Virus record (IMG/VR): IMGVR_UViG_3300033150_000513
Location: 1-38,554 of that record
DNA length: 38,554 nt
Reading direction: 5' to 3' (one strand)
DNA from: a virus
Shown in pieces: positions 5,166 to 28,309 of this stretch. The notes below the pieces were generated by a model. The model made no database searches and was not told the origin of the DNA. It saw only the letters and a program-made list of their open reading frames with translations. The translations under genes and the position numbers were made by a program. Each line of letters starts with the position of its first letter. Position 1 is the stretch's first letter.

Positions 5166-5191
5166 AACACTCCCTCCTATAATGCGTTATC

Positions 5192-8460: not shown

Positions 8461-8475
8461 TCTGTAACGCTCCTC

Positions 8476-8841: not shown

Positions 8842-8844
8842 GGT

Positions 8845-9957: not shown

Positions 9958-9976
9958 CCTCTCTACTCCCTCTCTC

Positions 9977-10624
9977 TTATGGCCACGGCGTAGGGCTGTT
10001 ATATGTCAGCTCTATCTGCACCACAACCCGCAGTCGTATCGTGCTGGTCTTGTGAATCCAATCAGCCTCAATCAAGTGATTGCGGTTCAGGTATCGCCGA
10101 TACAAGTCGTCTGTGCCCTCGTCGTCGTTCAGCTCCAGACAGAACAACCCCCACTCCTTGATCCAGGCATCGTTGCAGTCCTCTGACCCGAATGTAAAGA
10201 ACATCGCCACGCTGATCTCCGTGTCCGAAGTCTTCTGTATCTGAACGGCCTCTTGCATCTGCGCCTGCCCCGGTGCGTAGTCCTCTCCATTCTTTGCCGT
10301 GCTTCCGTAAGTAGCCCCCTTCTTCATGATCGGATGCACAAGGTCATTTTTGGTGTTGTCGAGGTTTTCCTCTCCGTCGCCAACCGCTATCTGGCAGAAG
10401 GGCTGTGCTCGCTTTCCGTGCGAATGCCGGGGTGAACCATGCTCCCATGTCCGATTGTAATCCTCTCCATATCCCATCAGTTGCCAGAGCATAAACCGCC
10501 GGGCATCCTTGATCAGCACACATGAGTTCTTGCCCTTCTCCCACAGAAACTTGCCTGTCCGAGCGTCAAAGGCTCTGAACCGAGCCGAAATCTTGCGTAT
10601 CATTGGCAACATCACCATCGGCAT
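9977..10624 (-). CDS. Tail-tip protein
   Basis: A 215-residue protein. The start at 10624 is chosen because GAGG lies five bases before it and it overlaps the upstream gene; longer in-frame extensions read through that gene. It has a beta-rich C-terminal half ending IRLRVVVQIELTYN, similar to the end of the preceding protein (DIEALVRVQCRW), so the two may be related. Position after Tal suggests a baseplate or upper-fibre protein. No family recognised. Confidence 0.6.
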   Translation of the reverse strand: MPMVMLPMIRKISARFRAFDARTGKFLWEKGKNSCVLIKDARRFMLWQLMGYGEDYNRTWEHGSPRHSHGKRAQPFCQIAVGDGEENLDNTKNDLVHPIMKKGATYGSTAKNGEDYAPGQAQMQEAVQIQKTSDTEISVAMFFTFGSEDCNDAWIKEWGLFCLELNDDEGTDDLYRRYLNRNHLIEADWIHKTSTIRLRVVVQIELTYNSPTPWP

Positions 10625-11163
10625 TGAACCCTCACTAACGCCTCGATGTCCCCAGTTATGGTATAGCCGGGGCTTATCAGGCCTCGATTCAACGCCGTCC
10701 AACCCGTCTTCTCTGGGTCTGGTGTCGTCGAGATGCACCACTCGTTCACAGTCGTTGAATCGCCAGAATACGGTATCCGCACACGACCCGTCCACTCGTA
10801 GAAGTCTGCCCCTCCACCAAACACATTCGTATGCTGATTATCCCCTTTTGTTTCGATTTCACCTGCCGCCATATCGCCGTTAGAGCTCCGAAGGGGACAC
10901 TCCAGTCCGGTCATTGTCGGGTCTGTCGAACTATCGTCTGTCCCCAATGCCACGAACCGGAATGCCGGCGCCTCAAACATCCCAAGAGCTATCAGGTCTT
11001 TGAAAAGTCCGTAGTAGAACCTCTCATTCTCGACCTTGTGCTTAAAGAAGACCTCAACCGCCTTGTAGAACCCGGTGTAAAGCAGCGTGTTCTTGTGCCA
11101 CGTTATCCGGCCATGTTCGTCTGGCAGGCCAAGGGCCGCCGATAGTCCAACTCTCTCGTTCAT
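10612..11163 (-). CDS. Baseplate-associated protein
   Basis: A 183-residue protein whose start overlaps the Tal stop by four bases (ATGA). It contains FRFVALGTDDSSTDP and YEWTGRVRIPYSGDS, beta-strand segments typical of small phage baseplate and fibre-attachment proteins. The C-terminus resembles the next protein's. No named family. Confidence 0.6.
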   Translation of the reverse strand: MNERVGLSAALGLPDEHGRITWHKNTLLYTGFYKAVEVFFKHKVENERFYYGLFKDLIALGMFEAPAFRFVALGTDDSSTDPTMTGLECPLRSSNGDMAAGEIETKGDNQHTNVFGGGADFYEWTGRVRIPYSGDSTTVNEWCISTTPDPEKTGWTALNRGLISPGYTITGDIEALVRVQCRW

Positions 11164-12374
11164 TCTAGCGGTATGTTCAGCACGCATGATAGGTTCGGCT
11201 CCAATTCACACACTAGCGGGAAAGTGTAGAAAAATTCCTCAGTCGCCCCCTCGGTCAATAACTGTCTCATGGTCTCCTTCATTGACACCATCTCCGCAAT
11301 GATGTCCGGCGGCCTGTAACCCAACTTTGGCTGCACTATCAGCCCATTATCCGTTATCCGGTATCGGGTCTTAGTGATCTGGTAATACTGGTGCGCATCC
11401 GGCGGCACAAATACATGCACCATGCCCGATTGCGGCTCAAACAAACCAACATTCGGCACCACCTCTAAGTCAACCCTATCCTGTGGTTCTGCGAACTCCT
11501 CAAAAACGGCGTTCATGTATAACTCTGCCGCCGCTATGTCCCTTATGCTCGGCTCATTCCGTATTGCGAAGTGAATGCCATATTGCTCGATGCTATCCTC
11601 ATCTCGCCCTTCTCTGAAGAACCGATACTCTCGATTTGTAGTCGTCTCCTTTGCCGTGCCGCCCCGTAGTAGTATCCGGTTTATGATCTTGGACGCATCC
11701 AGAATTGGCTTGAACTCGGTGATCTCTTTCCCCACCTGAAGATTATGCGCTACCGTCTTCTCTCTCGGATAGCAGTAGAGCTGTCGTTGACCATCCACGC
11801 CCCACTGCCAGTTCCCCATTATGGTGCTCAGCGTCTTTATCGCACTGTATACGTTCGAGTATTTCATGGTGAACGCTGTCGGCGCATAGCCCTCCGAAGC
11901 AGTCGGGATGTCGTCAGAATCATCGACCCTGCCAAGCGTCAGCTGCGGGCAGTTATCGGAGGTCATGACGACTCTGAAAAGGTCTTTCACGATGTCCGAC
12001 CACTTCTCGATCGTAACCCCCGTTGCCGGTATCTGATCGCCATCCCGATACTGCCACTGGTGCGTTACATTCTTGAGATATAGCCCCCACCCTACGCACG
12101 TTAGCTCTATGCTCTCGCCCCTCTTAGTAATCACGTTCCGGATGCTCTCAATACGCCCCTGCCAAAGCGGGTTGTCAAGCACATCGAAGCGCACCGGCCA
12201 ATAGATGTAGGCCTTGCTCAGCTGCTTATACGACTCAACCTTCCACGGGATTGTAAACCGACCGAGACCGCACCCACCAAACAGGTCTAATTCGCACTCG
12301 CCCTCGTTGACCTGCAGTTCATAAGTCTTCTCAAGCGATACCGGATCGAGCAAATAGAGACCGAAATCCGTCAT
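11160..12374 (-). CDS. Tail-associated baseplate hub (Tal / Gp37-like)
   Basis: A 404-residue protein directly after Dit with an ATGA overlap. The segments LWQGRIESI (early beta-barrel), YSAIKTLSTIMGNWQWGVDG and the later DIAAAELYMNAVFEEFAEP follow the gp27-like hub layout of siphovirus tail-associated proteins (for example the ReqiPepy6 Gp37-like family). It would form the trimeric hub that closes the tail tube. No lysozyme or peptidase domain is attached; the protein ends soon after the hub. Start at 12374 fits the overlap. Confidence 0.7.
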   Translation of the reverse strand: MTDFGLYLLDPVSLEKTYELQVNEGECELDLFGGCGLGRFTIPWKVESYKQLSKAYIYWPVRFDVLDNPLWQGRIESIRNVITKRGESIELTCVGWGLYLKNVTHQWQYRDGDQIPATGVTIEKWSDIVKDLFRVVMTSDNCPQLTLGRVDDSDDIPTASEGYAPTAFTMKYSNVYSAIKTLSTIMGNWQWGVDGQRQLYCYPREKTVAHNLQVGKEITEFKPILDASKIINRILLRGGTAKETTTNREYRFFREGRDEDSIEQYGIHFAIRNEPSIRDIAAAELYMNAVFEEFAEPQDRVDLEVVPNVGLFEPQSGMVHVFVPPDAHQYYQITKTRYRITDNGLIVQPKLGYRPPDIIAEMVSMKETMRQLLTEGATEEFFYTFPLVCELEPNLSCVLNIPLE

Positions 12375-13213
12375 GGTAGCAGCCACCGGTTACGCCATGT
12401 GAAGGTTACCTGAGCGGTTGAATCTATCCTTGCGCCGGGTGTTGCTAGTTCAAATGTTGTTGTGCCCGGCCCGCTGCTGAAGAAGTATCCGTTGAAATGC
12501 TCCAGCTCATTCGTGCAGTCGGCATTATCCGTCTCAATCGTTCGGTAGTCGTCTCTGGGATCATATTCGATAGTCGTGCCGCCCACGTTTGCCTGACAGG
12601 TTTCGTCCCCGAATCGCCAATAACCACGCCCCGTCCGGGCGTTAAGGTTCACATCCTCTACGCGGATTGTATCGAATATGTCCCCCGCTGGCATCGTGAT
12701 CTCCACACGCACGGGTGTTGGCATAGAACCACCGATGTTGATCTCAGCGCCCGGTCCGTTCAGCACAACATCCTGAACAGAAGACGAGTCCTCAAGGTCA
12801 TACCAGTACGGATCGAGTGCGATAAAATTCAAATCATAGGGCACCTCTTGTAGCACGACCCGACCCTCCGGCCACTCGGAACTTTCGATCCGAACCTTCG
12901 CCCGCCTGTCGGTGTATTTGTAGAGATAGAATGTCTCATCTTGACGCATAAACCGGCCAGAGAACGTGTCTCTGATCGTCTCATTCGTCTCGAGGTCAGC
13001 ACTCCCGATCGAGCCTTGCACGTGTATCTCCATCACTCCGAGAGGCCCGGAGAGAAAGCACTTCGCCCCGTCCCTCCGAGGCACTGTCTCTGGCTTGTGT
13101 CGCCGGCTGTGCCGCACATCAAACTTCAGCAACGGTCTGTAGTCAGGATTCGTCAGCTCAAACGAATCTGAGCCGTCCAGTGTCGTGATCTTCGGGCAGT
13201 ATGTTCGGCTCAT
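12371..13213 (-). CDS. Distal tail protein (Dit)
   Basis: A 280-residue protein directly after the tape measure (ATGA overlap) and before the hub. The N-terminal half is beta-rich with YLYKYTDRRAKVRI and a central LNFIALDPYWYD, a segment characteristic of Dit N-terminal domains. The C-terminal half is a galectin-like beta domain (about 140-280). Dit forms the hexameric hub to which fibres attach. Gene order and length support the call. Confidence 0.75.
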   Translation of the reverse strand: MSRTYCPKITTLDGSDSFELTNPDYRPLLKFDVRHSRRHKPETVPRRDGAKCFLSGPLGVMEIHVQGSIGSADLETNETIRDTFSGRFMRQDETFYLYKYTDRRAKVRIESSEWPEGRVVLQEVPYDLNFIALDPYWYDLEDSSSVQDVVLNGPGAEINIGGSMPTPVRVEITMPAGDIFDTIRVEDVNLNARTGRGYWRFGDETCQANVGGTTIEYDPRDDYRTIETDNADCTNELEHFNGYFFSSGPGTTTFELATPGARIDSTAQVTFTWRNRWLLP

Positions 13214-15402
13214 AGGTTCAGCCCCCGACCTAACTCGGCGTCAACATAGTCGCTAAGGTCTTTCAATAGTGCTCGTGTGTCATAGCTCCCTCGTAGCTCG
13301 GTGTTCACGACTAGCTGATCAACCCGTATCGACTGACCGCCGCCACCGACGCCGGCCATTGCTGGCTCCAATGCCCCGATGCCCGTCAAGCCACGGATAA
13401 GGTCCGCAATCGTTTTCGCTGGTGTAACGACCTCCCGCGGATGCAAGAATACCGCTCCCGCCTCCTTCGTGATAGCACCAGACTGCGCACTAACTAGACC
13501 AGCGCCAAACGATGATGCACCGGCCCCCGCACCCGCACCCGCACCGGCTCCGGCGCTAGCTCCCGCACCTCCGCCTATCGCACCAAACAATCCAAGCAGC
13601 GCTCTCAGAATCATTGCCTTCATGATCGCCTCTATTAACCACGCTATCAGAGACCGAAAGAACTTGCCCCACGCCTGCTTCGCAGTCAGCGCCCCCGTCA
13701 TTAGCCCCGAAATCCAACTCGCAGTTTGCGCTGCAAGCCTTTGCAATCCCGAACCAATCGTCTCAGCGAACGACTCCCAAAGCTCCCGGCCATCGTCTAT
13801 TTGGTCAGCGATCACACCCATAAACGTTGATCTTCTGTCCACTTGGGGAGCCTCTGGTTCAAACCGCGAACCCCAGTCCTCTTCTGGGATGTTCTCCGGC
13901 ATCCCCGGCGGCTTTCGGCCAACCTCAGGCTTGTGCTCCTTCATCCAATCTGGAGTCTCAAACATATTCTTGAGCCGCTCATACTCCATGATCAGCTTCG
14001 TCACATCGTCAGCCATGTCCTTCCAGACCTTGTGCCAACGTGAACCGAGGCTTTCGACCGGCTTCTGAAGATAGTAAATGTTGCGCTCTATCTGCTTGAC
14101 CTGGCGTTTCGCTTCTTTCTCGATGGCCTCTAGCTCTTTCCAAATCAGTGGGCCAATAATCGTCTTGAAAGGCTTCAGTAGCATTGTGAAGAGATGGACC
14201 ATCTTTTGATATATTTGCGCCAGCAGGGAATCGACTGCTTGTCTGATCCGGGCGATCATCATATTCTTCAATTCAATTGCCCAATCGTAAGCCCATTTGG
14301 CCGTAGCCACTATCAACCGGCCTAGACCTTTGATGTCCACCCACAATAGCTTCACGCCCAAGCGGAACTTATCAGAGTATTTGTAGGCCGCCGCAAACGC
14401 CGCCGATAATGCGATTGCGATCGCCATTAGCGGATGGGCCGCGATTAACGATCCCAGCTTCGACAGAGCTCCAGTTCCGACCAGGCTAAAGGCAGTGATA
14501 GCAGTTGTTACGGCGCTTATTTTCCCTGGCAAACCGCTAAGGCTATTGTTCCATTTGATCGTCGCCATTATATTCTTATTCAGCCAATCAACGATACTTT
14601 GTAGCGATGGCAATAGCTCGTTAGCAACCGCTATACTAACCCCCCTTAAGCCGTATTTCAGGGTTGTCATTGCATCATCGAACTTCTTAGCTGCCCTCGC
14701 ATTCTTATCGCTAAGCGTTATACCGAGAGCGTCCGCCTCTTGATAGAGTGCGGTGATCTGCTCTTTACCAAGCTGCAAGAAGGGTATCAGCTCGCCCCCC
14801 GCACGACCGAATAGCGTCAAAGCCATTGCCGCCCGAGCTGTGCTATCCTTGGTTTTGCGCATCCACTCCGCTATCTCTGCGAACACCACCTCCGCCGAAC
14901 GTAAACGCCCCGTCATGTGATCGATCGGATCGATGCCCATCTCCTTGAACGCCTTCGCATACTCCGAGCTCGGCGAGATGATGCAGTATTGCATCGTGCG
15001 AGATAGCTTGACGAGCGACTTCTGAAGGATGTCGATACTGGCATGCTCTTGCTCAGCAGCGTACGCCATGCGAGACAGGGCTTGAGCCGACATCCCGGTC
15101 TGCTTCATCATCTTGTCGATCTGCACACCGTAGCTGATCGACCCCTTGACCATCATGCCCAAGACGCCGATTATCGCCAGACCCGCAATCTTAAACGCCC
15201 GTGCGTGCGTCCGGATCGTCTTGTTCAGCTTCGTGAAGCTCTTGCCGATCCTCGCAAAGGCCGACCTGACCCTACTCGCCGTCTTGTTCGCCCGATCGCC
15301 GATCTTCTTCAGCGAATCTACCGTCTTTTGCGTCGCAACCTGAAGCTGCTTGACGTCCCCTACGAACTTGATAACGAGCTCTTCAAGCGTTATGCCGGCC
15401 AT
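13210..15402 (-). CDS. Tape measure protein (730 aa)
   Basis: The largest tail gene. The N-terminal 70 residues are coiled-coil (DSLKKIGDRANKTASRV). A hydrophobic segment follows (IAGLAIIGVLGMMV, about 72-85), then typical tape-measure text (AFKEMGIDPIDHMTGRLRS). Membrane-like helices lie at about 295-335 and 580-605. Near 605-630 is an (Ala-Gly)n tract, visible in DNA as a run of GCN/GGN codons (13530-13580). The tape measure sets tail length; 730 residues suggest roughly a 100 nm tail by the usual 1.5 Å per residue rule. It overlaps Dit by four bases. Confidence 0.9.
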   Translation of the reverse strand: MAGITLEELVIKFVGDVKQLQVATQKTVDSLKKIGDRANKTASRVRSAFARIGKSFTKLNKTIRTHARAFKIAGLAIIGVLGMMVKGSISYGVQIDKMMKQTGMSAQALSRMAYAAEQEHASIDILQKSLVKLSRTMQYCIISPSSEYAKAFKEMGIDPIDHMTGRLRSAEVVFAEIAEWMRKTKDSTARAAMALTLFGRAGGELIPFLQLGKEQITALYQEADALGITLSDKNARAAKKFDDAMTTLKYGLRGVSIAVANELLPSLQSIVDWLNKNIMATIKWNNSLSGLPGKISAVTTAITAFSLVGTGALSKLGSLIAAHPLMAIAIALSAAFAAAYKYSDKFRLGVKLLWVDIKGLGRLIVATAKWAYDWAIELKNMMIARIRQAVDSLLAQIYQKMVHLFTMLLKPFKTIIGPLIWKELEAIEKEAKRQVKQIERNIYYLQKPVESLGSRWHKVWKDMADDVTKLIMEYERLKNMFETPDWMKEHKPEVGRKPPGMPENIPEEDWGSRFEPEAPQVDRRSTFMGVIADQIDDGRELWESFAETIGSGLQRLAAQTASWISGLMTGALTAKQAWGKFFRSLIAWLIEAIMKAMILRALLGLFGAIGGGAGASAGAGAGAGAGAGASSFGAGLVSAQSGAITKEAGAVFLHPREVVTPAKTIADLIRGLTGIGALEPAMAGVGGGGQSIRVDQLVVNTELRGSYDTRALLKDLSDYVDAELGRGLNL

Positions 15403-16186: not shown

Positions 16187-16795
16187 TCATAACTCTAACA
16201 GTTTGTCGCGAATCCCGAACAACAAACCTTTGGTCTCGAACCCACTCATATCAAAGCACAGATTCATGTTCAGCGTCAGATCCAGAACCGCTTCCTCTTC
16301 AACTTTATAGTTGATGTCGCCTACAGACATCAGCGCTGCCTTCGGAATCAGTATCTCCCGCTGATAGTTCTTGCTGCCCCATGTGAAGGGCGTCACAAAT
16401 AGCGCAGTCAGATACGGCTCAGCATATTCACCCGTGATGCACAGCTGATCGATCAGCCCCGAACTCACATCAACATGGAAGTTTGGATTCAGGTAGCCGA
16501 ATGTCATGTTGAATGGCGTTAGTTCCTGCAGCTGAAACTTAAACGTGTGCTTCTTGGTGTGCACGAACGTCCTCAGCGGACTCGTAAACTGATCCGCCAT
16601 GATCTCACGAGCGTCATACTCCGGCGTGAAGACCATGCCTTCGCGGCTATACAGCCCTAACTCCTGCAATGTCGTGTCTTCTGTGACCGGATGGAAAGCA
16701 GCATACAACTTCCCCGAACCAATGAAAATCGTCTCAATGTCATAGGCTCGATCTGCCGTCGCATACGTCCATTCCGAAAGATCGCAATCTGCCAT
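16187..16795 (-). CDS. Major tail tube protein
   Basis: A 202-residue protein rich in beta strands (TFKFQLQELTPFNMTFGY, VLDLTLNMNLCFDM) with the length and position of a siphovirus tail tube protein: after the tail terminator and before the chaperones. It would polymerise as hexameric rings around the tape measure. The call is from position, size and composition. Confidence 0.75.
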   Translation of the reverse strand: MADCDLSEWTYATADRAYDIETIFIGSGKLYAAFHPVTEDTTLQELGLYSREGMVFTPEYDAREIMADQFTSPLRTFVHTKKHTFKFQLQELTPFNMTFGYLNPNFHVDVSSGLIDQLCITGEYAEPYLTALFVTPFTWGSKNYQREILIPKAALMSVGDINYKVEEEAVLDLTLNMNLCFDMSGFETKGLLFGIRDKLLEL

Positions 16796-16799
16796 CCTC

Positions 16800-17336
16800 T
16801 TACTCCTTTCTTGTCTCGTCTGAACCGGTGAATGCCAACAGCTTGACCTCCGCTCGCATCAAGCCCGCACTCAACCGGCCTATCAGGTCTTGTCGTGACT
16901 CAAATATCTCGGTCGCATCGAAGCTGACGCTAGTTCGCCTCGCCACTATCAGCTTCGCATTGCCTTTCAAGCCTGCCTCCGGCATAAGCATCCTATCTCC
17001 CCAGTCGTATCTCGACCAAATCATGTCGAGCTTGTTGATCCATTCATGCATCGTTAGCGCCGTTACCTCGTTAGACTCGTATCTCCTGAAGAGATATAGC
17101 TCGATCGGATACACCTGCACCTCCGGCCCCCGCACGCTGTCACTCCGGCGCTCAGGAAAGTCGATGCTTGGCAAAACGACCAGCAACATCGGCAGCCAAC
17201 TCGACAGCTTCGTGCTGTCGCTTGGTATCAGACTCAAATCACCGAAGCTGATCGTCTTCAGGCCGAGCTTCGCTTGAATGCCCTTCTCGGCCAATAGGTC
17301 GCATATCCGCTTGTAAATTGCGATGCTATGGATCAT
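16800..17336 (-). CDS. Tail terminator / tail completion protein
   Basis: A 178-residue protein with MIHSIAIYKRICDLLAEKG (N-terminal helix), then strands (MLLVVLPSIDF, EVQVYPIELYLF) and a C-terminal strand (RAEVKLLAFTG). This is the alpha/beta plan of tail terminator proteins of the lambda gpU type. It lies just before the tail tube gene, as expected. It caps the tail at the end that meets the head. Confidence 0.65.
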   Translation of the reverse strand: MIHSIAIYKRICDLLAEKGIQAKLGLKTISFGDLSLIPSDSTKLSSWLPMLLVVLPSIDFPERRSDSVRGPEVQVYPIELYLFRRYESNEVTALTMHEWINKLDMIWSRYDWGDRMLMPEAGLKGNAKLIVARRTSVSFDATEIFESRQDLIGRLSAGLMRAEVKLLAFTGSDETRKE

Positions 17337-17554
17337 GCCTTATCCTTGCGACTCCTGTATCGCTTTGTCTTTTTTACACTGCGCTTTGCCTTTGCCTTTA
17401 CAATAGGTTCTGCGCTCTCGTTATGCACCTCGCTAGGCTTTGGAGTCTTGATTTCCGACTTGGCCTTTTTCGCCCCTTTTGCCAGTCGATAAAGGCCTGC
17501 AATAGTCTGAACGTATCCCATGTCCTTCAACCTCTCTTTTGTTTCTGGTTTCAT
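17333..17554 (-). CDS. Small basic protein after the glycosyltransferase
   Basis: A 73-residue protein with a short helical N-terminus (ETKERLKDMGYVQTIAGLY) and a highly basic Lys/Arg tail (KAKAKRSVKKTKRYRSRKDKA is the last part, given here in shortened form as KRSVKKTKRYRSRKDKA). A GGAGG site precedes it. Histone-tail-like composition suggests nucleic-acid or acidic-protein binding, or a ribosomal-protein-like N-terminal tag (YVQTIAGLYRLAKG). Function unknown. It is the only gene between the glycosyltransferase and the tail terminator. Confidence 0.55.
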   Translation of the reverse strand: MKPETKERLKDMGYVQTIAGLYRLAKGAKKAKSEIKTPKPSEVHNESAEPIVKAKAKRSVKKTKRYRSRKDKA

Positions 17555-17568: not shown

Positions 17569-20421
17569 CTAGCTATCATTCCGCTTGACGATGTGGAGCT
17601 TGGGGTCTTTCGGCGTCCCCCGAAGGCGCTGCATATACTCCATGTTTTCAAGTCGTTTCGCTGTTTCCTGCTTGAATAATTCAGCCGTTGTCGGATCACT
17701 TGCAAGTCGGAACATTGTAGCGCCGCCCTCGTGAATCGCTTTGGCATTGACAGCCAGCACCACTTCCCAGCCTCGTGCCCTTGCCCGCAGACAATACTCC
17801 TTGTCCGAGCTGTATTGCGGGAAGTGTTGCGCATCAAGCAGCCCAATCTCATCGACCATCTGCCGATTCATCAGCACGCAACAGAAGCCCGCCCAATCCA
17901 TGCGGAGCAGCCCGTTCCTGATGGGTTCCGGATCGGATACTGTCTCCGCATGCGCCGCCAAGTCCATGCCTGTAAAGCTGTCCAAGTGCTGTGAACATAC
18001 TATCCCGATGTGCCCACGCTGCCGCATCGCTACGCTCAGCTCTCTCACAAGGCATTTGTCGGCGATCGCGTCGTCATTGAAGATCAGAATGTCGTTGCCT
18101 TCCTTTGCCGCCTGCATGCCCTTGTTCACGGCTGCACTGAACCCTCTCCGCTTGTCGTCCTGAAATACTTTGATGTGCTGGGCAATCTCTGCCGAAGCCC
18201 CCGCCAATATCTTATCAACCGCCCTCTCGGTTTCTGGGTGCTTGCCGTCTATAACGATGATGATCTCACCCACTTGGCCCTCCAGCGATTGCACCGCCGC
18301 CATTAGCTTTCGCGGGTTTTTCACAGTCGGAATTACGGCACTCACCTTCTCGATCCGCTGTGGAGGTTTCCGGTCATGGCGTTCTATACGCATGTCGCCG
18401 TTTAGACCGATCTCAGTGAAGCGGCGCTCTTTCACGTCCACATCCCGGATCTTCGTTACCAGCGGTGCTCGCAGCCAACGCCACCTCTGATGATGATGCT
18501 TGTTGCTCACGACAGCCCTGATGGTGTGCTCAATACCTCTCCGCCTCGAGGCGACACTGCCGACATGCTCGGCCAGCTTGAGCGACCCCGGTATAACACC
18601 AGCATTGACGCCCGCTAGATGCGCTCTAGCCACATAGTCGCTGTCAAACCCATGCCATATGAAGCTTTCGTCAAAGTAGCCAAGCTTAGCAAGGGCGTAC
18701 GCCGAAATCCCGATAACGGCTGAGGCAAACCCGTTCTTGTATCCAAGATTGGGGAACCTCTCGCCGAAATCAGCGAACTCCATGCCCCACACGTGAAGGT
18801 GCATCTCCTTCGCCCGTGTGATCAGCTTCGCAAGCCAGTCGGGCTTGAAGTTGATCACATCGTCGTCCATCAGCACATACCAATCGACAGGTTCCTCCTG
18901 TTGCCACAAGGCTAATAGATCGTTGTATGGCACCGGCGGGAACTTCATCTTTTCTGCATGCACCGCCCCGATGTAGAGCGAGCCTTCCGGCCCCTGAATC
19001 TTTTTCGGTATCGCCGTCTTCTGCCCGTTGTTCAGAACCGTTATCCGACAGTCGTCAAATGCCCGTGTTGTATGCGCCCTAAGTAAGTCCCCAAGCTGTC
19101 GTTCAAGCAACTCTTGCGGTGCTCCACCATGAATGATGCCCAGTTGAACACTCGTTTCTACCATCTCTCGTGATACCTCGAAGTGCTCTTCTGGCCTCCA
19201 AACTCGATGCACTACGGCTTGGACATGCTGGTTCCGGTGCAACGTTTCCGGTGAATGTTTCTCATTCTCAAGTCCAAGTAGCTTCACGGCCTTATCGAAT
19301 ACTAACTCCGGCGTGATTGCCGCGAGACACGGACTCCAGCCACCGCTTTCCTTGTTCTGAATCGCACGGATGCACGGCTTGAATGCCCCATCAAAACATG
19401 GCTGACAGTGGAACCTCTCTGTGCCTATCGCCGGGCCGTTCTCAAGAACGTGGATGTGTGGACTTTCACCATGACCACAGCGAGTTGCTGCGTTCACCGG
19501 ACCATACATGACGATGGCCTCTTTCCCGATCGCATCGCAAACATGAGCAAAGGAACTATCTGGCCCGATAAAGAGATCACACTCGCTTATGAGCGCCGCC
19601 GCATCAGACCAGCATCGTGTCTGGTTCACGAAGTTGAATACGCCCGGACATACCGTTGCGGCTTTTCTCAGCATGTCATAACCGGGCACTTGCGCCGGGA
19701 ATTGGCCGACCAAGAAGACATCAACACCCGGTATCGATGCCAGCCCTGTGAAGAGCTTTATCGTGTTGTGCAACGGCCATGTCCTGCGCAAGCTAGAACC
19801 AGCGACTTGGATCGCTATCCGTTTGACGTCCCGTCTTAGAACGCCGTCCCCTATCAGTCGCCGTATCGTCTCGACTGCCTGTCTATCTACGTGGTATTCA
19901 GGGCGCCGGCTCGACAGCTCCGACAGCTCGATCTCCATTTGCTCGCCGAATATCTCGGTCCCGGTCTTGGTTGTGAACTCATCTTTCTCGATGGTTTTGT
20001 TGAACCAGTACACCCGGTCATAGCTCCGAAGCCAGTTGATCGGCACGTAGCTCGTGGGGATAATTTTGTTGATGTGCGGGTTGCTGCGGATTGCATCCAC
20101 AAAGTGCTTATCAATTGCGCAGTCGATCGTGGCCGGAATGAACGCCTCTTTCAGGTATCGTATCAGCGGCGTCAGCATCAGCCAATCGCCGAAGCCCCCG
20201 TGCCGCACAATCAGAATGCGTTGACCGTCCTCAGGCCGGCGATTTGCCTTGTGCCTAATATCCTCAGGAACTTCCTCGACATTCTCTATGCTATGCACGT
20301 TCTCGTTTCGCGCCGCCTCCACAAGGCCGTTTGGCACCAAGTAAGCGACGTGTGGGTCGAACTGCTTTGTGGGCGGATTGCCCAATCTGACCTCGATCTT
20401 GAATGTGATACTCTTCATCAT
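17569..20421 (-). CDS. Three-domain glycosyltransferase (GT9-like + two GT2-like)
   Basis: A 950-residue protein, the largest in the genome. Residues about 66-395 resemble GT9 (ADP-heptose transferase type): ILIVRHGGFGDWLMLTPL (about 68) and FIGPDSSFAHVCDAIGKEA (about 285-305). Residues about 480-640 contain a GT-A fold with VLMDDDV (about 512) and a WHGFDSDYVARAH segment. Residues about 690-920 are a second GT2-type domain: VSAVIPTVKNPRK, IIIVIDG, ILIFNDDA (about 778) and DKEYCLRARARGWEV. Phages use such enzymes to glycosylate DNA, capsid or tail proteins. The gene lies inside the structural operon between the connector and tail terminator, which favours a virion protein as substrate. I see no sugar-nucleotide synthesis genes, so it would use host donors. 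Confidence 0.85.
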   Translation of the reverse strand: MMKSITFKIEVRLGNPPTKQFDPHVAYLVPNGLVEAARNENVHSIENVEEVPEDIRHKANRRPEDGQRILIVRHGGFGDWLMLTPLIRYLKEAFIPATIDCAIDKHFVDAIRSNPHINKIIPTSYVPINWLRSYDRVYWFNKTIEKDEFTTKTGTEIFGEQMEIELSELSSRRPEYHVDRQAVETIRRLIGDGVLRRDVKRIAIQVAGSSLRRTWPLHNTIKLFTGLASIPGVDVFLVGQFPAQVPGYDMLRKAATVCPGVFNFVNQTRCWSDAAALISECDLFIGPDSSFAHVCDAIGKEAIVMYGPVNAATRCGHGESPHIHVLENGPAIGTERFHCQPCFDGAFKPCIRAIQNKESGGWSPCLAAITPELVFDKAVKLLGLENEKHSPETLHRNQHVQAVVHRVWRPEEHFEVSREMVETSVQLGIIHGGAPQELLERQLGDLLRAHTTRAFDDCRITVLNNGQKTAIPKKIQGPEGSLYIGAVHAEKMKFPPVPYNDLLALWQQEEPVDWYVLMDDDVINFKPDWLAKLITRAKEMHLHVWGMEFADFGERFPNLGYKNGFASAVIGISAYALAKLGYFDESFIWHGFDSDYVARAHLAGVNAGVIPGSLKLAEHVGSVASRRRGIEHTIRAVVSNKHHHQRWRWLRAPLVTKIRDVDVKERRFTEIGLNGDMRIERHDRKPPQRIEKVSAVIPTVKNPRKLMAAVQSLEGQVGEIIIVIDGKHPETERAVDKILAGASAEIAQHIKVFQDDKRRGFSAAVNKGMQAAKEGNDILIFNDDAIADKCLVRELSVAMRQRGHIGIVCSQHLDSFTGMDLAAHAETVSDPEPIRNGLLRMDWAGFCCVLMNRQMVDEIGLLDAQHFPQYSSDKEYCLRARARGWEVVLAVNAKAIHEGGATMFRLASDPTTAELFKQETAKRLENMEYMQRLRGTPKDPKLHIVKRNDS

Positions 20422-20424
20422 CTC

Positions 20425-20985
20425 CTAGATCCTCCGTGCGTCTCGTTGCATTCGTTGAAGATTCTGTTTCAGTGCTGGCCTCAGGAACGGGTGAATGCTC
20501 TTAGCCCCGCCAACCATGAAGCCCCTTATCTTACGTCTCGACTTCCAATCTACATGCCGGTATGAGCGTCTTGCGCTAGTTCGTGAAGTATGTCCGATTG
20601 AGCTGCCGACCCGGCTCCGGCCTGTGGATCTCGAGCTGTCGATCTGTGCCCAGCTCAACTTCAGGCGCCTATGTGCCCAGCCTGCGAAATCCGGATGTCC
20701 CGCAAATGGAAGGAAGTGCCTTCTCGGCACAGTCGGATACCCCTCGACCCATCGAGCATACTTCGTATTCGTGCCGACCCGCATCTCTACTCGTGAACCC
20801 CGTATCTCATTTTGCGCTGCGATACTTCCCGCTAGTCGACCTGTATCTCGACCACCGTGCGCCCTCGTTAGTCGCCGTTGTGCGTCGCCTACTATCTTCA
20901 AGCCCCACACATGGAGCCAGCGGTTGAGTCGTTCTGGCAACTCTTTGTCTGTATAGCGTTTCAATCGCTTACGAACATCGGTCAT
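20425..20985 (-). CDS. HK97 gp10-like head-tail connector/neck protein
   Basis: A 186-residue protein. HVWGLKIVGDAQRRLTRAHGG...DTGRLAGSI (about 28-55), VGTNTKYARWVEGYP (about 72-86) and IHPFLRPAL near the C-terminus (about 165) are the standard pattern of the HK97 gp10 family. A 50-residue Arg/Ser-rich insert (SSRSTGRSRVGSS) is unusual. The start at 20985 overlaps the upstream stop (ATGA). Confidence 0.75.
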   Translation of the reverse strand: MTDVRKRLKRYTDKELPERLNRWLHVWGLKIVGDAQRRLTRAHGGRDTGRLAGSIAAQNEIRGSRVEMRVGTNTKYARWVEGYPTVPRRHFLPFAGHPDFAGWAHRRLKLSWAQIDSSRSTGRSRVGSSIGHTSRTSARRSYRHVDWKSRRKIRGFMVGGAKSIHPFLRPALKQNLQRMQRDARRI

Positions 20986-21386
20986 GTCAACCGCTCCAAG
21001 TAGAACGTATCGAAGCACTCGTTGTCAGACGCTTGTTCCACGACCAGAAACTCCTCGCCGCTCATGTCCTCGCCGCTCGGTCTGCGACCTTCCACAATGC
21101 GCACCCTATCATTGACCTTCGGGTATGCTTCCCGCATCAGCCACGGGCTAATAGTTCTGTCCGACCTGGGCTGGCAATACATCTTGTCTGTGAATGCGAT
21201 CTCGATGCCCATCCGGCTGATCATCTGTGTCTGGGGTGCGTTCTCCAGCATGCACCTGAATGCAGGCTCCTTGAGCTCATATTTCGGCGTCTTGGGTTGG
21301 AGGGACGTCCCCTGATCGACAAGCTTCAGCGTTTGGAACTTGTGCGTCCACACCCTCGGAACAAGCGACATCCGGTTTCTACGCAT
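20982..21386 (-). CDS. Head closure / stopper protein
   Basis: A protein of about 134 residues (start uncertain: GTG 21395, ATG 21386 or ATG 21371). The C-terminal half reads VNDRVRIVEGRRPSGED then EFLVVEQASDN, a small beta-barrel typical of head-closure proteins between the adaptor and gp10-like protein. The assignment is from order and fold impression. Confidence 0.55.
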   Translation of the reverse strand: MRRNRMSLVPRVWTHKFQTLKLVDQGTSLQPKTPKYELKEPAFRCMLENAPQTQMISRMGIEIAFTDKMYCQPRSDRTISPWLMREAYPKVNDRVRIVEGRRPSGEDMSGEEFLVVEQASDNECFDTFYLERLT

Positions 21387-21898: not shown

Positions 21899-23164
21899 TC
21901 AATCATAGGGGTTATTTTGGCTCTCGCCCGAACCTGGTTGGAATGCCGGGATCAATGCCGCCGTCCCCTCCCAAATCTGGGCATTGAGCTTTGCCGTCTC
22001 CATGACCAAGAACGTCCGCTTCAGGAACAAATCGAAGTCCTCGATCATGTTGCTCCCGGTCTTGACCTTCCAGTCCCCGCGGCTCATTGCCAGAATCGGT
22101 CCACGTCCCGTGCCCTCGAGATACACCATCGTCAGTGCTGGCGTATACTGCTTCGGGTCAGTGAAGACGTAGACGTTATCGCAGCTCCCGCCCGCTAACT
22201 CGTCGAGATACGGATCGAGGATCAGCTGCATTCCGAGGTCGGCATACTTGCGCATCGGGTTACTGACCAGGTTGCCTGCACCATCGGGGACCATCTCGTC
22301 ATTCAACAGGTGCCACACCAGAACCCACTGGTTCAACCCGACCACCATATACTTGGGCGGATTCGAGATCAGGTTGCCCTGCTTGATGCCGCTCTTGGGG
22401 TCTTTCTGCGAGTCACGCTGCTGCATCGGGATGTTACAAAGCGTCTGAAGCAGGTTCGCACTGTCGAGGTTGATACCGGTTATCCCACTTGGCAGAACGT
22501 TCAAATGATCATAGCACCACATCTGGAACCCATCGTAGGGCGAGTGGATGTTATTGACCATCGCATCGGCCACCTCACGAGCCAGCGTGCGCAGTGCCGC
22601 TACACCCATGCGCTCGCTCAGCGTCTTCAGCCGGCTGATGTCGTCATTGATCTGAGCCTCGAAGCTCAAGTGGAATGTCCGGCCCCGCTTCCCGGTCCTG
22701 ATCAGCCAATCTCGCCGATTCAGTTTGACCGCATCCTGGAACTCAGCGTTCTCCGCCACCACCGGCAGATCGGGGAACGAGTCCTCGTCACTTCGCTCGT
22801 GTGGCCGGAAGTTATCGACGTCCTCCTCACCGACCCACAGCTTCCAAGACGAGTCTGCCGGCAGCTGCTTTGAGACGGTATAGATCGTCCGTGCCTTCTC
22901 GATGTTGCTCTTGGAGCTTTCCAGATCGCTACTGTCTGCGCTCTCTCTGAATAAGGCGCTGACAGCACTCTGCGCAAGCTCTGCCTCGTGAAGACGCCTG
23001 AAGAAGGCCGTCCGTGCAACCTCTTGCAGGCTGACTAAGACCTCATCCCAAAAGGCTTCCGGTCCGGCTTTCTGGCCATATTCGCTCACATAGCCACGTA
23101 GCAGGCTGTGCAAATCCCGCTTCTGGCTGAACCCTAATATCTGATCAATCGCAACTGCTCTCAT
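21899..23164 (-). CDS. Major capsid protein
   Basis: A 421-residue protein following the scaffold/protease and decoration genes. It has an N-terminal helical region (about 1-110) and a central part with PYDGFQMWCYDHLNVLPSG (about 212-230) and LISNPPKYMVVGLNQW (about 270-285), fitting HK97-fold capsid proteins of the larger type. The C-terminal part has GPILAMSRGDWKVKTG and FLKRTFLVMETAKLN, as seen in capsid P- and A-domains. No separate delta domain is obvious. A GGAG site precedes the ATG. Confidence 0.75.
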   Translation of the reverse strand: MRAVAIDQILGFSQKRDLHSLLRGYVSEYGQKAGPEAFWDEVLVSLQEVARTAFFRRLHEAELAQSAVSALFRESADSSDLESSKSNIEKARTIYTVSKQLPADSSWKLWVGEEDVDNFRPHERSDEDSFPDLPVVAENAEFQDAVKLNRRDWLIRTGKRGRTFHLSFEAQINDDISRLKTLSERMGVAALRTLAREVADAMVNNIHSPYDGFQMWCYDHLNVLPSGITGINLDSANLLQTLCNIPMQQRDSQKDPKSGIKQGNLISNPPKYMVVGLNQWVLVWHLLNDEMVPDGAGNLVSNPMRKYADLGMQLILDPYLDELAGGSCDNVYVFTDPKQYTPALTMVYLEGTGRGPILAMSRGDWKVKTGSNMIEDFDLFLKRTFLVMETAKLNAQIWEGTAALIPAFQPGSGESQNNPYD

Positions 23165-23577: not shown

Positions 23578-24771
23578 TCACTCGCTCCTCTCTTCTTGCT
23601 TCATTATTGGTTCCGTCTCCAGCCCGAAGGACTCACGCACCATCCCCCGGAGTTCCTGATCCCGCTCTGACCTTTCTTTCCTCAGGCCTTTCAGGTCAGT
23701 TTCAGCTAAGCCACCGATCACTCTGCCCGGTTGCGCCGTCTCCTTCAGGTAGTTTCGCTCCGCCTCGACAGTCTTCTCGAACACCTCGTCTAGCTTGACC
23801 TTCGGGTCTCGCCTAACGGCCTCAACCACAGTCTCCGTGATCCTCTTTTTGGTTGCGTCGGGCAAGTCTGTTAGGTCGCTGACCCGCTTCTCAACCACTC
23901 GCTCCGTCAGGACGACTCGGTTGAGTGTCTCCAGTCTCGCCACTCGCTGCTTGAGTTCGTTCAATTCCTTGCTCCTCTCCTCATTCAGACGTTGGGTTTG
24001 CTCCGCAAATTGACCTCCTTGCGCAGCGCCGAAAACCATGTCGACGCTTTTTGGTGTGAATGCCACAACGGTTTCTCGTGGTTCGCCGTCAACCACCTCG
24101 ACTTGCCTGTCGCCAACCGCCGATAGACTGAACTGCACCAGTCGCCGATAGGCGTCGTCTTGGCATTCTACGGCTCGGATGGGGTTCGTTATATGGAAGT
24201 CGGCGAATATGCCTCGGGCGACTTTGCCAGAAGGCATGAGCCTCTCCTCAAACCGCGGGTTCGTGAGATAGCCCATCATATCCGCCGGGTCTCGATGATC
24301 CTCATCCTCGCCCTCTTTCGCATGGTTGTCGTAAACCTTCAGCCCCTCGAACTGGGGCACGGCCTCGATTAACAGCTCCTCCGGATAGCATCGGTTAGCA
24401 CCGCAGCCGGCCTCGATTGCTAGGACAGGCCAGACCTTGCGGGCATTGTCATACTGCATCGCTTTAACCGGAACCGTTTCTGAGAACCTCAGAATCGTGG
24501 GTTGCGATGCGATCTCGTTGGTTTCGCTGGTCTTTGCTGGTTCAAACAATTTCCCCTCATGCTCCTTACAGTGTTGTCGTGCCTGGGCCTCCGTCCACGT
24601 ATCCTTCGGGTAGCGGTAGGCCTGTTCTGTCATTGTATCTTGCCCCTTCAAACGACCTACTATGATGTGATATTCCTTTCCCTCGTGTTTCCTGGTCATT
24701 CGGCGCATCGAATCTGGCTGAAAGTCGCTCGGATCCCTGAGCCGACAGCTGTGCTCATTCGGATACGGCAT
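23578..24771 (-). CDS. XkdF-like domain + prohead protease + scaffold fusion
   Basis: A 397-residue protein. Residues about 20-80 match the short N-terminal module seen before XkdF-type proteases (YHIIVGRLKGQ, then WTEAQARQHCKEHE). Residues about 95-260 carry the protease: His150 in VYDNHAKEG and Ser215 in LVQFSLSAVGD fit the catalytic His and Ser of the HK97/U35-like fold. Residues about 265-397 are coiled-coil (ELNELKQRVARLETL), a scaffold that would be removed during capsid maturation. One gene thus supplies both functions. It has a clear GGAG start. Confidence 0.75.
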   Translation of the reverse strand: MPYPNEHSCRLRDPSDFQPDSMRRMTRKHEGKEYHIIVGRLKGQDTMTEQAYRYPKDTWTEAQARQHCKEHEGKLFEPAKTSETNEIASQPTILRFSETVPVKAMQYDNARKVWPVLAIEAGCGANRCYPEELLIEAVPQFEGLKVYDNHAKEGEDEDHRDPADMMGYLTNPRFEERLMPSGKVARGIFADFHITNPIRAVECQDDAYRRLVQFSLSAVGDRQVEVVDGEPRETVVAFTPKSVDMVFGAAQGGQFAEQTQRLNEERSKELNELKQRVARLETLNRVVLTERVVEKRVSDLTDLPDATKKRITETVVEAVRRDPKVKLDEVFEKTVEAERNYLKETAQPGRVIGGLAETDLKGLRKERSERDQELRGMVRESFGLETEPIMKQEERSE

Positions 24772-24787: not shown

Positions 24788-25570
24788 TCATGCGTTTGCT
24801 ATGACGTTCTCGATCGCAGCGGTCGTCGGCACCCACGAGCCTGTGTGGTTCGGATGCAGTCCCGTCTCGATACTTTCTGCCTCATCGACCGGGTAGGGGT
24901 TGTTCGCAATCACATCTTGGCACTCCTCGCAGTCTGGGCTACAGCCCACGAGCTCGACTTGCATGGCGCCCACCTCGGTCAGCTCCGCAATCTTGCCCAA
25001 GTTGTAGGACTTCACGACTGTCGTTCTGGCAATCGTCTCCGCCCGGCCAAGCGTTGCCTCCCCCTTCGCTTTCAGTGCTTCTTGCATGTCCCGAATACTC
25101 CAGCCTTCACGCATCCCTTGCTCGATAACCTCTCCCACCGTCGCCTTAACAGTAGTGCTCATTTGATCCGTTAGCCACTCTGCTAGCTCTTCTGCTTTTG
25201 CTTTGAGCGTCTCGACGCCCCTCACATTCACAATGTCGTATCCTATGACCTTGTTCAGACCATCAGTCGCATCGGTGGCTCCGAGCATGTATCCCTTGAC
25301 GGCGAACGTGGTGGTCAACTTCTTGAGTTCGCTGACGAATCGCTCGAACGGCGGCCTCTTGGTCTCCAGTAGACCGGCGTCTCTCATTGCGTCTCTGGCG
25401 ATGGTATTCCAGAACCGACCATACAGCGAGCGGATTTTGCTCAGAAGGGCGAACTCCAGCTTCAGCCTGGCTCTCCAGTTTATCGGCACGCCTCGACGAG
25501 CGATGCGGCCTATGGAGCGCTTCTCGCCGTCCCCGATCTCGATCGCCTCTATGAGCTCTTCAACCATCAT
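24788..25570 (-). CDS. MuF / SPP1 gp7-like head morphogenesis protein
   Basis: A 260-residue protein right after the portal (overlapping stop). The C-terminal part has RAETIARTTVVKSYNLGK (about 183-200), CSPDCEECQDV with a CxxC-like pair, and LHPNHTGSW (about 243), the conserved elements of the phage Mu F-like domain. These proteins enter the capsid with the portal and help DNA handling. ATG at 25570 or 25567. Confidence 0.85.
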   Translation of the reverse strand: MMVEELIEAIEIGDGEKRSIGRIARRGVPINWRARLKLEFALLSKIRSLYGRFWNTIARDAMRDAGLLETKRPPFERFVSELKKLTTTFAVKGYMLGATDATDGLNKVIGYDIVNVRGVETLKAKAEELAEWLTDQMSTTVKATVGEVIEQGMREGWSIRDMQEALKAKGEATLGRAETIARTTVVKSYNLGKIAELTEVGAMQVELVGCSPDCEECQDVIANNPYPVDEAESIETGLHPNHTGSWVPTTAAIENVIANA

Positions 25571-27048
25571 ACTCGCCGTCCCAATACGTTGCGCACGATC
25601 GTTGTGGCACCCGCCTCGCCGGTGTCAGGATCGTCCTCAAACGGCAACACGCCAACTGTCGCCGCATTCGTTACTGCCGTAACCATCGGCGGGATGTCGT
25701 CTTCAATCATCGGCGGGAAGCTCGCCTGGCACATACCAGCCTTCTCCTTGAAGCGTGTCCATAGCACGAATTGGCACACTCCCTCGTAGAGAGCCCGTAG
25801 TTGGGCCTGCCACATCCGAGCGTGCTTTATGACTGGCAGTTCCATGCTTTTCGCGGTTGCAAGCGTGCCCTGACTGATGTCCCCGGTCAGGTAGTTGTGG
25901 GGTAGGCCCGTGCCGGCGCCGATCATGAGCTCGATGCGTTTGCCCAAGTCGCTGGCGATCTGGATGCCACCGGTCGGTGTGTGTATCGGAGCATTCTCGA
26001 CATTCTGGCTTTCCATGAGGCTACTGCCCGCTACCGCTTTGGTCGCAAGCTGCCGATAGACCTTCGTGATAAATGCCCGCTCTCTCGCCATCTGGCTCTT
26101 GGTGCCCGGCTTGACCTTCCGCTTCCATGCGAACTGCAACAGGCTCCTCAAGAACTGCATGGCGTCCCTGAAGACCGTGTCATGCTTCTCCAGCCAAGCG
26201 ACAATGCGAGCGGTTGCAGGCCAACCCCGGTTCTCCAGCGGGTCGGAGCCGAAGGTCTGGTGATAGACCCAGACGCCCCGCTGAACTCGCTTGACTATGC
26301 CGTTCACGAACGCTTTCCTGTCGTGCGGGAATTGCCCATATCGCTGGGCGAGCGTTGTGCTTGCATACAGGACGGAGTTACCTTCGTTGCGGTTCACGCC
26401 GGGTGAATCGAGATTGAACTCAATCTTGTGATGTCGCTTCCAATATGCCAGCTCGGTCGCTGAGTCGTAGGGGTCGGTTACGATCGGGTCTCGGATGTCG
26501 AAGGTATCAAACAGGCGGATCGACACCACATCGGTTATCGGTTGCCTTATGGTCGGATCAGAGTTACCGAATAAGGCCACAAACAGCTCGCCATCGTATT
26601 GCAGCTTGTCGGACACCTGGTATTGCGCAACGGAACTGGTGAAGATTTTCTGGTTGATCTTGTCGTTCCAGAACTCCTCGAGGTATTCCTGTTGCTGGTC
26701 GACGGTGCTGTCGTTGCCCTGTGGTAGTTGCACGGTAGGGCACTTTATCCCGCCGTCTCCTAGAGCAAACTCTGTGGAGTGCCGTATCGGACTATATCCG
26801 AGCGACTTCGAGAAGTAGGCGGCTCGTGTCCGGGTTACAGCCTTCTCTCGTGTGTCCGTATCACTCGCAGAGAAGCCATGCTCGCCAACATTGCCACCGA
26901 TAATCCTGAAGCCTTGAGTGTTCATAGCTTCGGCGAGCTGTATCGCTGTGCTCTCAGCGAGCTGGTCGAGGTCGTCCTCTGCGGCCTTGTTGACCTCTTG
27001 GATGATGTCATCTACAATCTTGCTAACTCGCTTCTCACTAAGCCACAT
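25567..27048 (-). CDS. Portal protein
   Basis: A 493-residue protein between terminase and MuF genes. The start at 27048 is preferred because GGAG lies six bases before it. Segments such as YDGELFVALFGNSD, VVSIRLFDTFDIRDP and LPHNYLTGDISQGTLATAKSME (the last in shortened form LPHNYLTGDISQGTLA) fit phage portal proteins, which form the dodecameric ring for DNA entry and tail docking. A Gly/Thr-rich C-terminus completes it. Confidence 0.85.
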   Translation of the reverse strand: MWLSEKRVSKIVDDIIQEVNKAAEDDLDQLAESTAIQLAEAMNTQGFRIIGGNVGEHGFSASDTDTREKAVTRTRAAYFSKSLGYSPIRHSTEFALGDGGIKCPTVQLPQGNDSTVDQQQEYLEEFWNDKINQKIFTSSVAQYQVSDKLQYDGELFVALFGNSDPTIRQPITDVVSIRLFDTFDIRDPIVTDPYDSATELAYWKRHHKIEFNLDSPGVNRNEGNSVLYASTTLAQRYGQFPHDRKAFVNGIVKRVQRGVWVYHQTFGSDPLENRGWPATARIVAWLEKHDTVFRDAMQFLRSLLQFAWKRKVKPGTKSQMARERAFITKVYRQLATKAVAGSSLMESQNVENAPIHTPTGGIQIASDLGKRIELMIGAGTGLPHNYLTGDISQGTLATAKSMELPVIKHARMWQAQLRALYEGVCQFVLWTRFKEKAGMCQASFPPMIEDDIPPMVTAVTNAATVGVLPFEDDPDTGEAGATTIVRNVLGRRV

Positions 27049-28309
27049 AGTCCGCTCCAAACATTGCGTCAATCTCCGGGTCTGGCCCCATGACGGCTAG
27101 CTCTTCTGTCGGTTCCTCTAATAACTGGGCTTCGGCTTCTGCCTTCGCCATAGCAGTTACGAGGTATCGCAAGGCGTCCATAGCGTGGTCGTTGATTTTG
27201 AGGGGGCGCTCGTTCTTGCCGAACATATAGCGCTTAATCTCCCAGAGCGTCTTCTCGCATGACTCATCGATGCGTATCCTGTCGTGGTCGAGCCAGTTCT
27301 TTACGGTCATAATGCCCTTGTGCACGTTCTTGTCGGGCGACGATACAGCCGGCAAGCCATGCCGTATCAGTTCCTCTACGAGCTCCGGGGCCTCGCTATC
27401 CACCACCACGAGTGCTGGGGCGATGTCGGATTGTTCGCATATGGCCACGATGTCTGCTTGCGTGTATGAGTCGCCATAAACCTCGTCATAGACCGTCAGC
27501 ACTCGCCCGTCGTAGTCGCAGAACAAGACCGCCGCTGCGCTACTATAGGCGGGGTCAATCGCTATGAGGCAGTTATCGGGTTTGTAGTCAGAGACAACGT
27601 GCTTGACTGGGTCGAACTCGTGATAGATAAGCCCCGTCAGCACTCTGAGGTCTCCGCCAATGCGCCGTGCGAATACGTCTCTCGCCAGACTATTCTCGAG
27701 GGCTTTGATTTTGGGATCGTCTCTGCCCAGCGGATAGACCATGCTGTTAGCCCATGCAGGGAACACGGCCACCTCAGCTTCCGGGTCTTTGCTCCAGTCT
27801 CGATAGACCCGATAAATCCAGTCGTATCCGGGATGGCTTGGTTCAGGGACGTTGGTTCCGAGCTTCAGTGTGCCATTACGAACGTTGCAGGCGATCTGAC
27901 AGTTCACAAAGGCCGTCTCTGGGCAAAGCGATGCCTCGTCAAGGATAACGAGATCGCAGTCCCAACCTTTGATGCTTTCGGGTTTCTCACCTGTCTTGAA
28001 CTGGATCATGCCGTTGGAGGGCGTAATCCACACATGCTCCTGCGAGTTGTGATTGACCAACACGCCGATCTGGCTCATGTAGTTCGTGAGCTGCTCCATG
28101 ATCGGGCGCATCACGGGGAAGTTCGGCCCCACATAGTAGCATCTTGCACCGGGTAGGCGTAAGGCCACGTCTACGAGCTCTCGTGTGAACTCAAAGGTCT
28201 TACCACTTCGCTGGGCGCCGATGTAGAGCTGACGCTTGGCCATGCTGGTGAACATCCGCATCTGTATCCCGGTGAACTCAGGACTGTCAATCGCCATTCT
28301 TCTTGCCAT
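27038..28309 (-). CDS. terL: Terminase large subunit
   Basis: A 423-residue ATPase-nuclease. Walker A GAQRSGKT (31-38), Walker B LVILDE (120-125), and the nuclease acids Asp252 (AIDPAYS), Asp304 (VVDSEAPE) and Asp378 (NDHAMDAL) are all present. It packages DNA through the portal and cuts it. The start overlaps the small terminase gene. Another ATG at 28297 is possible. Confidence 0.95.
   Translation of the reverse strand: MARRMAIDSPEFTGIQMRMFTSMAKRQLYIGAQRSGKTFEFTRELVDVALRLPGARCYYVGPNFPVMRPIMEQLTNYMSQIGVLVNHNSQEHVWITPSNGMIQFKTGEKPESIKGWDCDLVILDEASLCPETAFVNCQIACNVRNGTLKLGTNVPEPSHPGYDWIYRVYRDWSKDPEAEVAVFPAWANSMVYPLGRDDPKIKALENSLARDVFARRIGGDLRVLTGLIYHEFDPVKHVVSDYKPDNCLIAIDPAYSSAAAVLFCDYDGRVLTVYDEVYGDSYTQADIVAICEQSDIAPALVVVDSEAPELVEELIRHGLPAVSSPDKNVHKGIMTVKNWLDHDRIRIDESCEKTLWEIKRYMFGKNERPLKINDHAMDALRYLVTAMAKAEAEAQLLEEPTEELAVMGPDPEIDAMFGADYVA

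Follow-up and report, generated by a model that had tools for sequence, protein, structure and literature searches.

A putative three-domain glycosyltransferase encoded among the virion genes of an IMG/VR virus, and a recurrent glycosyltransferase position in uncultured phages

A 950-residue glycosyltransferase is encoded within the virion operon

The DNA analyzed here, 38,554 bases long and hereafter referred to as the window, corresponds to an entire IMG/VR virus record. It is classed as linear and carries nearly all of its predicted genes on the minus strand. A reading frame of this strand at positions 17569..20421, stop codon included, encodes a 950-amino acid protein harboring three glycosyltransferase (GT) domains. 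The frame exists at exactly the coordinates given by the initial annotation, which had left the strand unstated; the plus strand across the same interval is full of stops, and the frame is open on the minus strand only. In the direction of transcription, the GT gene is preceded by the genes for the terminase (27038-28309), the portal (25567-27072, minus strand) and a head morphogenesis protein, a gene at 23578-24771, the major capsid protein gene (21899..23164, minus strand; PF25209, 5.9e-18; phrog_133), two small genes and, directly upstream, a gene for a neck or HK97-gp10-like protein (20425..21018, minus strand; PF04883, phrog_5). Directly downstream lie an ORF whose 73-aa translation is Lys-rich (17333..17554, minus strand), an ORF of 178 aa (16800..17336, minus strand), the gene for the major tail (tube) protein (16187..16795, minus strand; phrog_476, 1.6e-9; phrog_2175), two small genes and the genes for the tape measure (13210-15402) and Dit (12371-13213).

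The neck gene upstream and the major tail protein gene downstream thus bear out the proposed placement of the GT inside the virion operon. The narrower proposal that it lies between connector and tail terminator stands as far as its first half is concerned, given the neck gene. As to the second half, the 178-aa ORF, from which the GT gene is separated by the Lys-rich ORF, bears the terminator label by position only; it matched no Pfam or PHROGs family, and its hhalign probability against the terminator profile of other phages was 0.1, so that its identity as a tail terminator was rejected as unproven.

The spacing of the gene is coupled to that of its neighbor, as had been noted. Three bases separate the neck stop codon (20425-20427) from the GT ATG at 20421, and an AGGAG ribosome-binding site overlaps that stop; the ATG of the 73-aa ORF, at 17554, is 14 bases past the GT stop. 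With a GC content of 0.548 and a codon-use correlation with the other virus genes of 0.87, the highest among 31 tested, the GT gene shows no sign of recent arrival.

The protein comprises a GT9 domain and two GT-A domains

Domain 1 (residues 60-395; 19237..20244, minus strand) is a GT9 domain of the GT-B type according to Pfam, profile matches and motifs. PF01075 (GT9) matched residues 191-311 at 28.4 bits, the Pfam gathering score being 22, and a profile made of domain 1 and two viral GT9s from locus L020 matched the GT9 structures 3tov (4e-13) and WaaF 1psw (3e-10). The domain displays GGFGD (75-79), GPDSS (286-290) and CxxC (339-342) motifs as well as C365; a GD..LMLTP..R.LK motif, a D-S motif and three cysteines are common to it and to the two L020 proteins. 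The N-terminal GD and C-terminal D-S motifs are presumably the catalytic and donor-binding places of the GT9 family. Where the GT9 family usually has D-T/S-G, the C-terminal motif of domain 1 has DSS. Alike by profile and Pfam to the GT9 heptosyltransferases (WaaC, WaaF, PDB 3tov), domain 1 differs from them in being fused to two GT-A domains and in scoring far from the NCBIfam equivalog cut-offs for LPS heptosyltransferases I, II and III (38.9, 29.2 and 42.9 bits vs 185.3, 134.6 and 170.2, respectively).

The view that GT9-type domains are uncommon in phages agreed with our searches: of 50,697 phage records queried by tblastn with the GT9 domain, just 19 gave a match at a cut-off as lenient as E ≤ 10, and bacterial contigs and chance matches were among them. 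The GT9s of Caulobacter Bertelyvirus and of Synechococcus phage Sf-FS3 aligned too poorly and were left out of the domain 1 comparison. Within positions 4876-12321 of Sf-FS3 (L008), the GT9-like gene is found beside genes for carbamoyltransferases, a cytidyltransferase, a PfkB kinase and a phosphoheptose isomerase, a neighborhood suggestive of a cyanophage cassette for activated heptose. Within positions 7913-9309 of Caulobacter phage C1 (L007), the GT9-like gene, annotated as hypothetical, adjoins an FkbM methyltransferase gene and is conserved in Bertelyvirus and CcrSC/CcrBL9 phages.

Domain 2 (residues 396-684; 18370..19236, minus strand) matched no Pfam family at E ≤ 0.1, GT2 included, and was recognized as a GT2-like GT-A domain by other means. 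Residues 455-608 match phrog_2456, 'glycosyltransferase', with an E-value of 7e-13, and an HMM of domain 3 and viral GT2 domains from which domain 2 had been excluded matched it at 3.5e-8, the best of 2000 shuffled copies reaching 0.34. An AlphaFold2 model computed with 15 viral GT2 rows, an alignment that may favor the GT-A fold, had a mean pLDDT of 71.8 and a core of ~90; Foldseek searches with this model returned GT-A enzymes such as WrtF and RmlT. Fold and motifs thus both point to a GT-A domain, the acidic motifs being DDD (519-521) and GFDSD (591-595).

Domain 3 (residues 685-950; 17572..18369, minus strand) is a GT2 domain by Pfam, alignments, pLDDT and Foldseek. PF00535 (GT2) matched residues 694-812 with 46.2 bits against a gathering score of 23.3. 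Its motifs are FNDDA (781-785) and SDKEYC, which contains the acidic D873; in alignments with plasmid and viral GT2s, N782 and D784 are invariant across 23 rows, and D873 aligns with acidic residues. The 23-row alignment omits L020, whose GT9 rows an earlier alignment had placed on domain 3, and also L030, L105 and L051. Foldseek returned GalNAc-T2, GlfT2 and TarP, and a similarity to rhamnosyltransferase models fell below cut-off. The AlphaFold2 model of the full-length protein (mean pLDDT 52.6) was of low quality except in domain 3 and a portion of domain 1, with pLDDT values of about 85-96 over most of residues 691-800.

Three GT domains in one protein, as first annotated, are therefore supported by PF01075, by phrog_2456 together with the HMM, and by PF00535; the domains proper extend over roughly residues 65-385 (GT9), 450-635 (GT-A) and 690-910 (GT2). 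A loss of catalytic residues, named at the outset as an observation that would speak against the annotation, was not seen; acidic motifs, which we take to be the catalytic places, are kept in all three domains.

The fusion is unique within the databases searched

The initial annotation had called for a search for the same fusion in other phages. The 950-aa protein yielded no tblastn match at 1e-5 in 50,697 phage records. Among 72,556 plasmids, 28 records matched, none over 80% of the protein, and the 20 of them that were listed matched domain 3 only, at 24-30% identity. Single-protein pattern scans of IMG/VR and GTDB contigs, which detect close relatives only, retrieved no relative. In the absence of a full-length match in these phage, plasmid, IMG/VR and GTDB searches, the GT9-GT-A-GT2 protein is unique within them. 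A GT9 scan of IMG/VR viral contigs found two loci, L119 and L120, the latter being the L020 contig, and the nearest domain combination seen is a 565-aa GT2-GT9 fusion at L020 12388-14082. L020 is a 95-kb viral contig on which a second GT9 gene lies near the fusion. One apparent phage match to domain 3, MT836753 (L009), was set aside as it looks like a bacterial polysaccharide cluster.

Portal and terminase searches found no close relative of the virus itself. The archaeal Methanoculleus virus L4768/Blf4 has a portal distantly similar, at 25%, to that of the window, and the window virus could have an archaeal or a bacterial host. Neither Methanoculleus virus L4768/Blf4 nor L003-L006 had a match to phrog_2456, tblastn giving chance matches only in L003-L006. 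None of the 13 loci found with a capsid alignment had a GT2 label nearby. The nearest relative by gene order, L140, in which terminase, portal, capsid and tape measure were recognized, has no labelled GT; the GT gene would thus be dispensable, an optional addition in that lineage.

Glycosyltransferase genes recur beside the tail terminator in uncultured phages

A scan with the 950-aa protein and four plasmid GT2s, made irrespective of gene position, yielded 26 viral-contig loci, in which PHROGs-named genes of L019, L027 and L030 served as queries to label the remaining loci. The GT closely followed the tail terminator, either immediately or after one or two intervening ORFs that were small or antisense, in 13 of the 26 (L017, L018, L019, L021-L028, L030 and L031). 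For L015, no terminator was called, and its GT falls between the adaptor and the tape measure; the other 12 loci were of a different type or not judgeable. Near copies within the set are L018/L019, L026/L027 and L030/L031. In L019, for example, the gene directly between tail terminator and major tail protein (5323-7611) encodes a 763-aa protein which has a GT2 at its N-terminus and a match to phrog_1574 in its C-terminal portion, with no assignment for the stretch separating them. Proteins with several domains were found elsewhere as well: three GT2 stretches in L014, where the gene follows a virion structural gene, two each in L029, L033 and L038, and a GT2 with a methyltransferase in L023.

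A second set was selected by head-tail adaptor. An alignment of seven adaptors retrieved 151 related stretches, the best 80 of which were labelled with local HMMs; as the query rows came from GT-bearing loci, this sample represents one broad lineage rather than all phages. Terminator and major tail protein were both present, in order, in 29 of the 80 contigs, and a GT2 lay between them in 17 of the 29, or 13 of 25 when the query-donor contigs L022, L040, L042 and L064 are left aside. The junction was empty in none of the 29, all of which have one or more genes of at least 150 aa there. Forty of the 45 GT2-labelled genes of the set were situated between connector and tail genes and five elsewhere, two of the latter in L056, which is the contig of L015 and has neither a connector nor a terminator call. 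Across 33 representatives, 26 GT2 genes of at least 100 aa were inside the junction and one outside, compared to 38 and 190 of the other genes of this size that carried no virion label (Fisher p = 6e-17, a value inflated by relatedness and seed contigs). L044, L046 and L047 encode a 738-aa GT2-labelled protein upstream of the adaptor, and L044 and L047 also carry other large unlabelled junction genes.

Pfam searches of 31 unlabelled junction genes from cluster representatives revealed mainly methyltransferases among the 25 of 36 families listed, with up to seven of the genes matching one methyltransferase family; a sugar C-methyltransferase, a GFO_IDH_MocA oxidoreductase, hexapeptide transferases, GT4 and HNH/NUMOD3 were also listed. 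Ten chosen neighbors included, in addition, a second GT, methyltransferases and a UDP-sugar dehydrogenase. The HNH/NUMOD3 endonuclease-like genes adjoin junction GTs at L026 1538-2440 and L017 9978-10676, and possibly are a vehicle for the spread of the GT cassette.

Among cultured relatives, tblastn with the L019 adaptor matched 18 phage records, and none of the seven named relatives inspected had an annotated GT between terminator and major tail protein. Six of the seven are siphophage-like, with terminator and major tail genes mostly adjacent; the seventh, Komagataeibacter phage phiKM1, is a myovirus whose comparable stretch contains a transposase. With the L022 junction GT, matches at 1e-8 were limited to six phage records, and none extended over 80% of the protein. 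From these two results, the arrangement looks rare or absent among the cultured phages of the collection.

The junction GTs (L017, L019, L022, L023, L030 and others) and the L014 protein resemble the window protein in that they carry a GT2 homologous to domain 3 and are encoded in virion operons. They differ from it in having no GT9 domain and in belonging to another phage lineage, and the junction GTs lie behind the tail terminator, whereas the window GT comes before the terminator position, one gene earlier. No protein of the junction lineage was matched at E ≤ 1e-3 by the connector, portal or tail proteins of the window, and the window terminase matched only that of L029; the window virus is thus a separate case.

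Virion proteins as candidate acceptors, and alternative readings

Virion glycosylation and three-domain viral GTs are already known. Chlorovirus PBCV-1 A111/114R is, like the window protein, a single virus-encoded protein with three GT domains, of ~300 aa each, and is proposed to add three sugars to the glycan of the major capsid protein (PMC7826918). PBCV-1 is an algal virus and not a tailed phage, the glycan concerned is an N-glycan on a jelly-roll capsid protein, and the domain families, as assigned by the authors, differ from those of the window. Mycobacteriophages are reported to add sugars to both capsid and tail tube through GTs of their own (Che8 gp110, Corndog gp38), and cluster O phages have three tandem GT genes downstream of an O-methyltransferase gene; these sets of several GTs and a methyltransferase are separate genes, in contrast to the single fusion of the window, and in two cluster F1 phages the GTs are described as right-arm genes, remote from the structural ones. 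A GT encoded within a structural module is gp41 of Cellulophaga phage phi18:1, whose dsDNA genome is 39 kb; it is described as a single GT (PMC11946311). The literature covered, mostly papers outside subscription, contained no account of GTs maintained at the junction of tail terminator and major tail protein, and nothing on the point of fused phage GTs; the fusion, unique in the GTDB, IMG/VR, plasmid and phage searches, and the recurrent genomic place appear to be new.

We consider the window protein to be a putative soluble three-step GT, made late with the neck and tail proteins, whose most likely task, held with about even confidence, is the addition of a short glycan to a virion protein. 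The three domains would work in order on one glycan. From what is known of the families, the donors would be nucleotide sugars of the host cytoplasm, domain 1 would function as a GT-B enzyme and domains 2 and 3 as metal-dependent inverting GT-A enzymes. The acceptor would be cytoplasmic, and by neighborhood and precedent the first candidates are the tail tube protein (16187-16795) and, as an alternative, the capsid protein. Recurrence of GTs and methyltransferases at nearly the same junction lends indirect support to virion glycosylation. Speaking against it are the position of the window virus outside the lineage in which the junction was counted, the placement of its GT one gene ahead of that seen there, the lack of a labelled GT in L140 and of any other sugar gene among 20 window proteins scanned with Pfam, and the presence of HNH/NUMOD3 endonucleases at the junction, which could be a cargo site.

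A strong rival, quite possible in our judgment though short of probable, is that the enzyme acts in the cytoplasm on a glycan, either lipid-linked or of the host surface, and by modifying it prevents other phages from adsorbing or helps progeny to escape receptor debris. GT9 enzymes are relatives of LPS heptosyltransferases, and domain 3 has the sub-threshold resemblance to rhamnosyltransferases mentioned above. The GFO_IDH_MocA, hexapeptide and C-methyltransferase genes of the junction would also suit a surface glycan. Moreover, the GT among the virion genes of gut 'Gratiaviridae' phages is read by its authors as capsule modification (PMC8008677) and pelagimyophage GTs as O-chain modification (PMC7029224). 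On the other hand, the maximal 19-residue mean hydropathy of the 950-aa protein is 1.51, no membrane segment is seen, and the protein is predicted from hydropathy to be soluble; a value of 1.8 was passed by four of 85 GT2-labelled genes in the loci examined. The membrane-spanning partner or domain of phage O-antigen conversion (Gtr) systems was accordingly not found in the protein, nor was there any GtrA, GtrB or GtrC match among 30 window proteins scanned with PHROGs. A late operon position suits surface exclusion poorly, and the junction beside the tail-tube gene is kept although its gene content varies.

Glycosylation of the viral DNA on a modified base is very improbable. Phage GTs acting on DNA exist (cited in PMC12619734), but no hydroxymethyl-pyrimidine synthase or other base-modifying enzyme was detected among the 30 PHROGs-scanned and 20 Pfam-scanned window proteins, and the GT gene sits in the virion operon.

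Returning to virion glycosylation, we raise only tentatively, and consider on the whole unlikely, the broader proposal that many uncultured siphophages use the junction from head-tail connector to tail tube as a locus dedicated to virion decoration, in which a variable set of GTs, methyltransferases and sugar-modifying enzymes, sometimes fused into multi-step enzymes such as the GT9-GT-A-GT2 protein, serves to glycosylate the tail tube. The junction might instead be a neutral landing site in which GTs are frequent cargo and their place is unlinked to the acceptor, an improbable explanation to our minds. Homing-type HNH/NUMOD3 genes and the phiKM1 transposase would fit such a site; the uneven partition of GT2 and other genes across the junction (26/1 vs 38/190, inflated by related and seed contigs) and a junction content that is mostly glycan-related do not. 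Since a cargo site explains no function by itself, it is compatible with either the virion or the host-surface reading. Were the tail tube indeed the acceptor of the junction GTs, glycosylated virions would be common in uncultured siphophages and not confined to some mycobacteriophages, and a fused three-step GT would offer a compact means of producing defined glycans. The recurrence of the junction makes the question testable in any cultured phage that has one, and this recurrent GT place deserves a proper census.

Other genes of the window

Three further minus-strand genes of the window were noted. The gene at 5518-7671 encodes a 717-aa protein with no PHROGs or Pfam match; its composition is atypical (GC 0.473, GC3 0.443, codon correlation 0.54), and it may be a recently gained host-contact protein. 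A DUF5131 protein (PF07505, 220 bits; phrog_2045) is encoded at 36350-37234, and the product of 8476-8841 has a glutaredoxin/thioredoxin-like N-terminus that scores below the Pfam cut-off.
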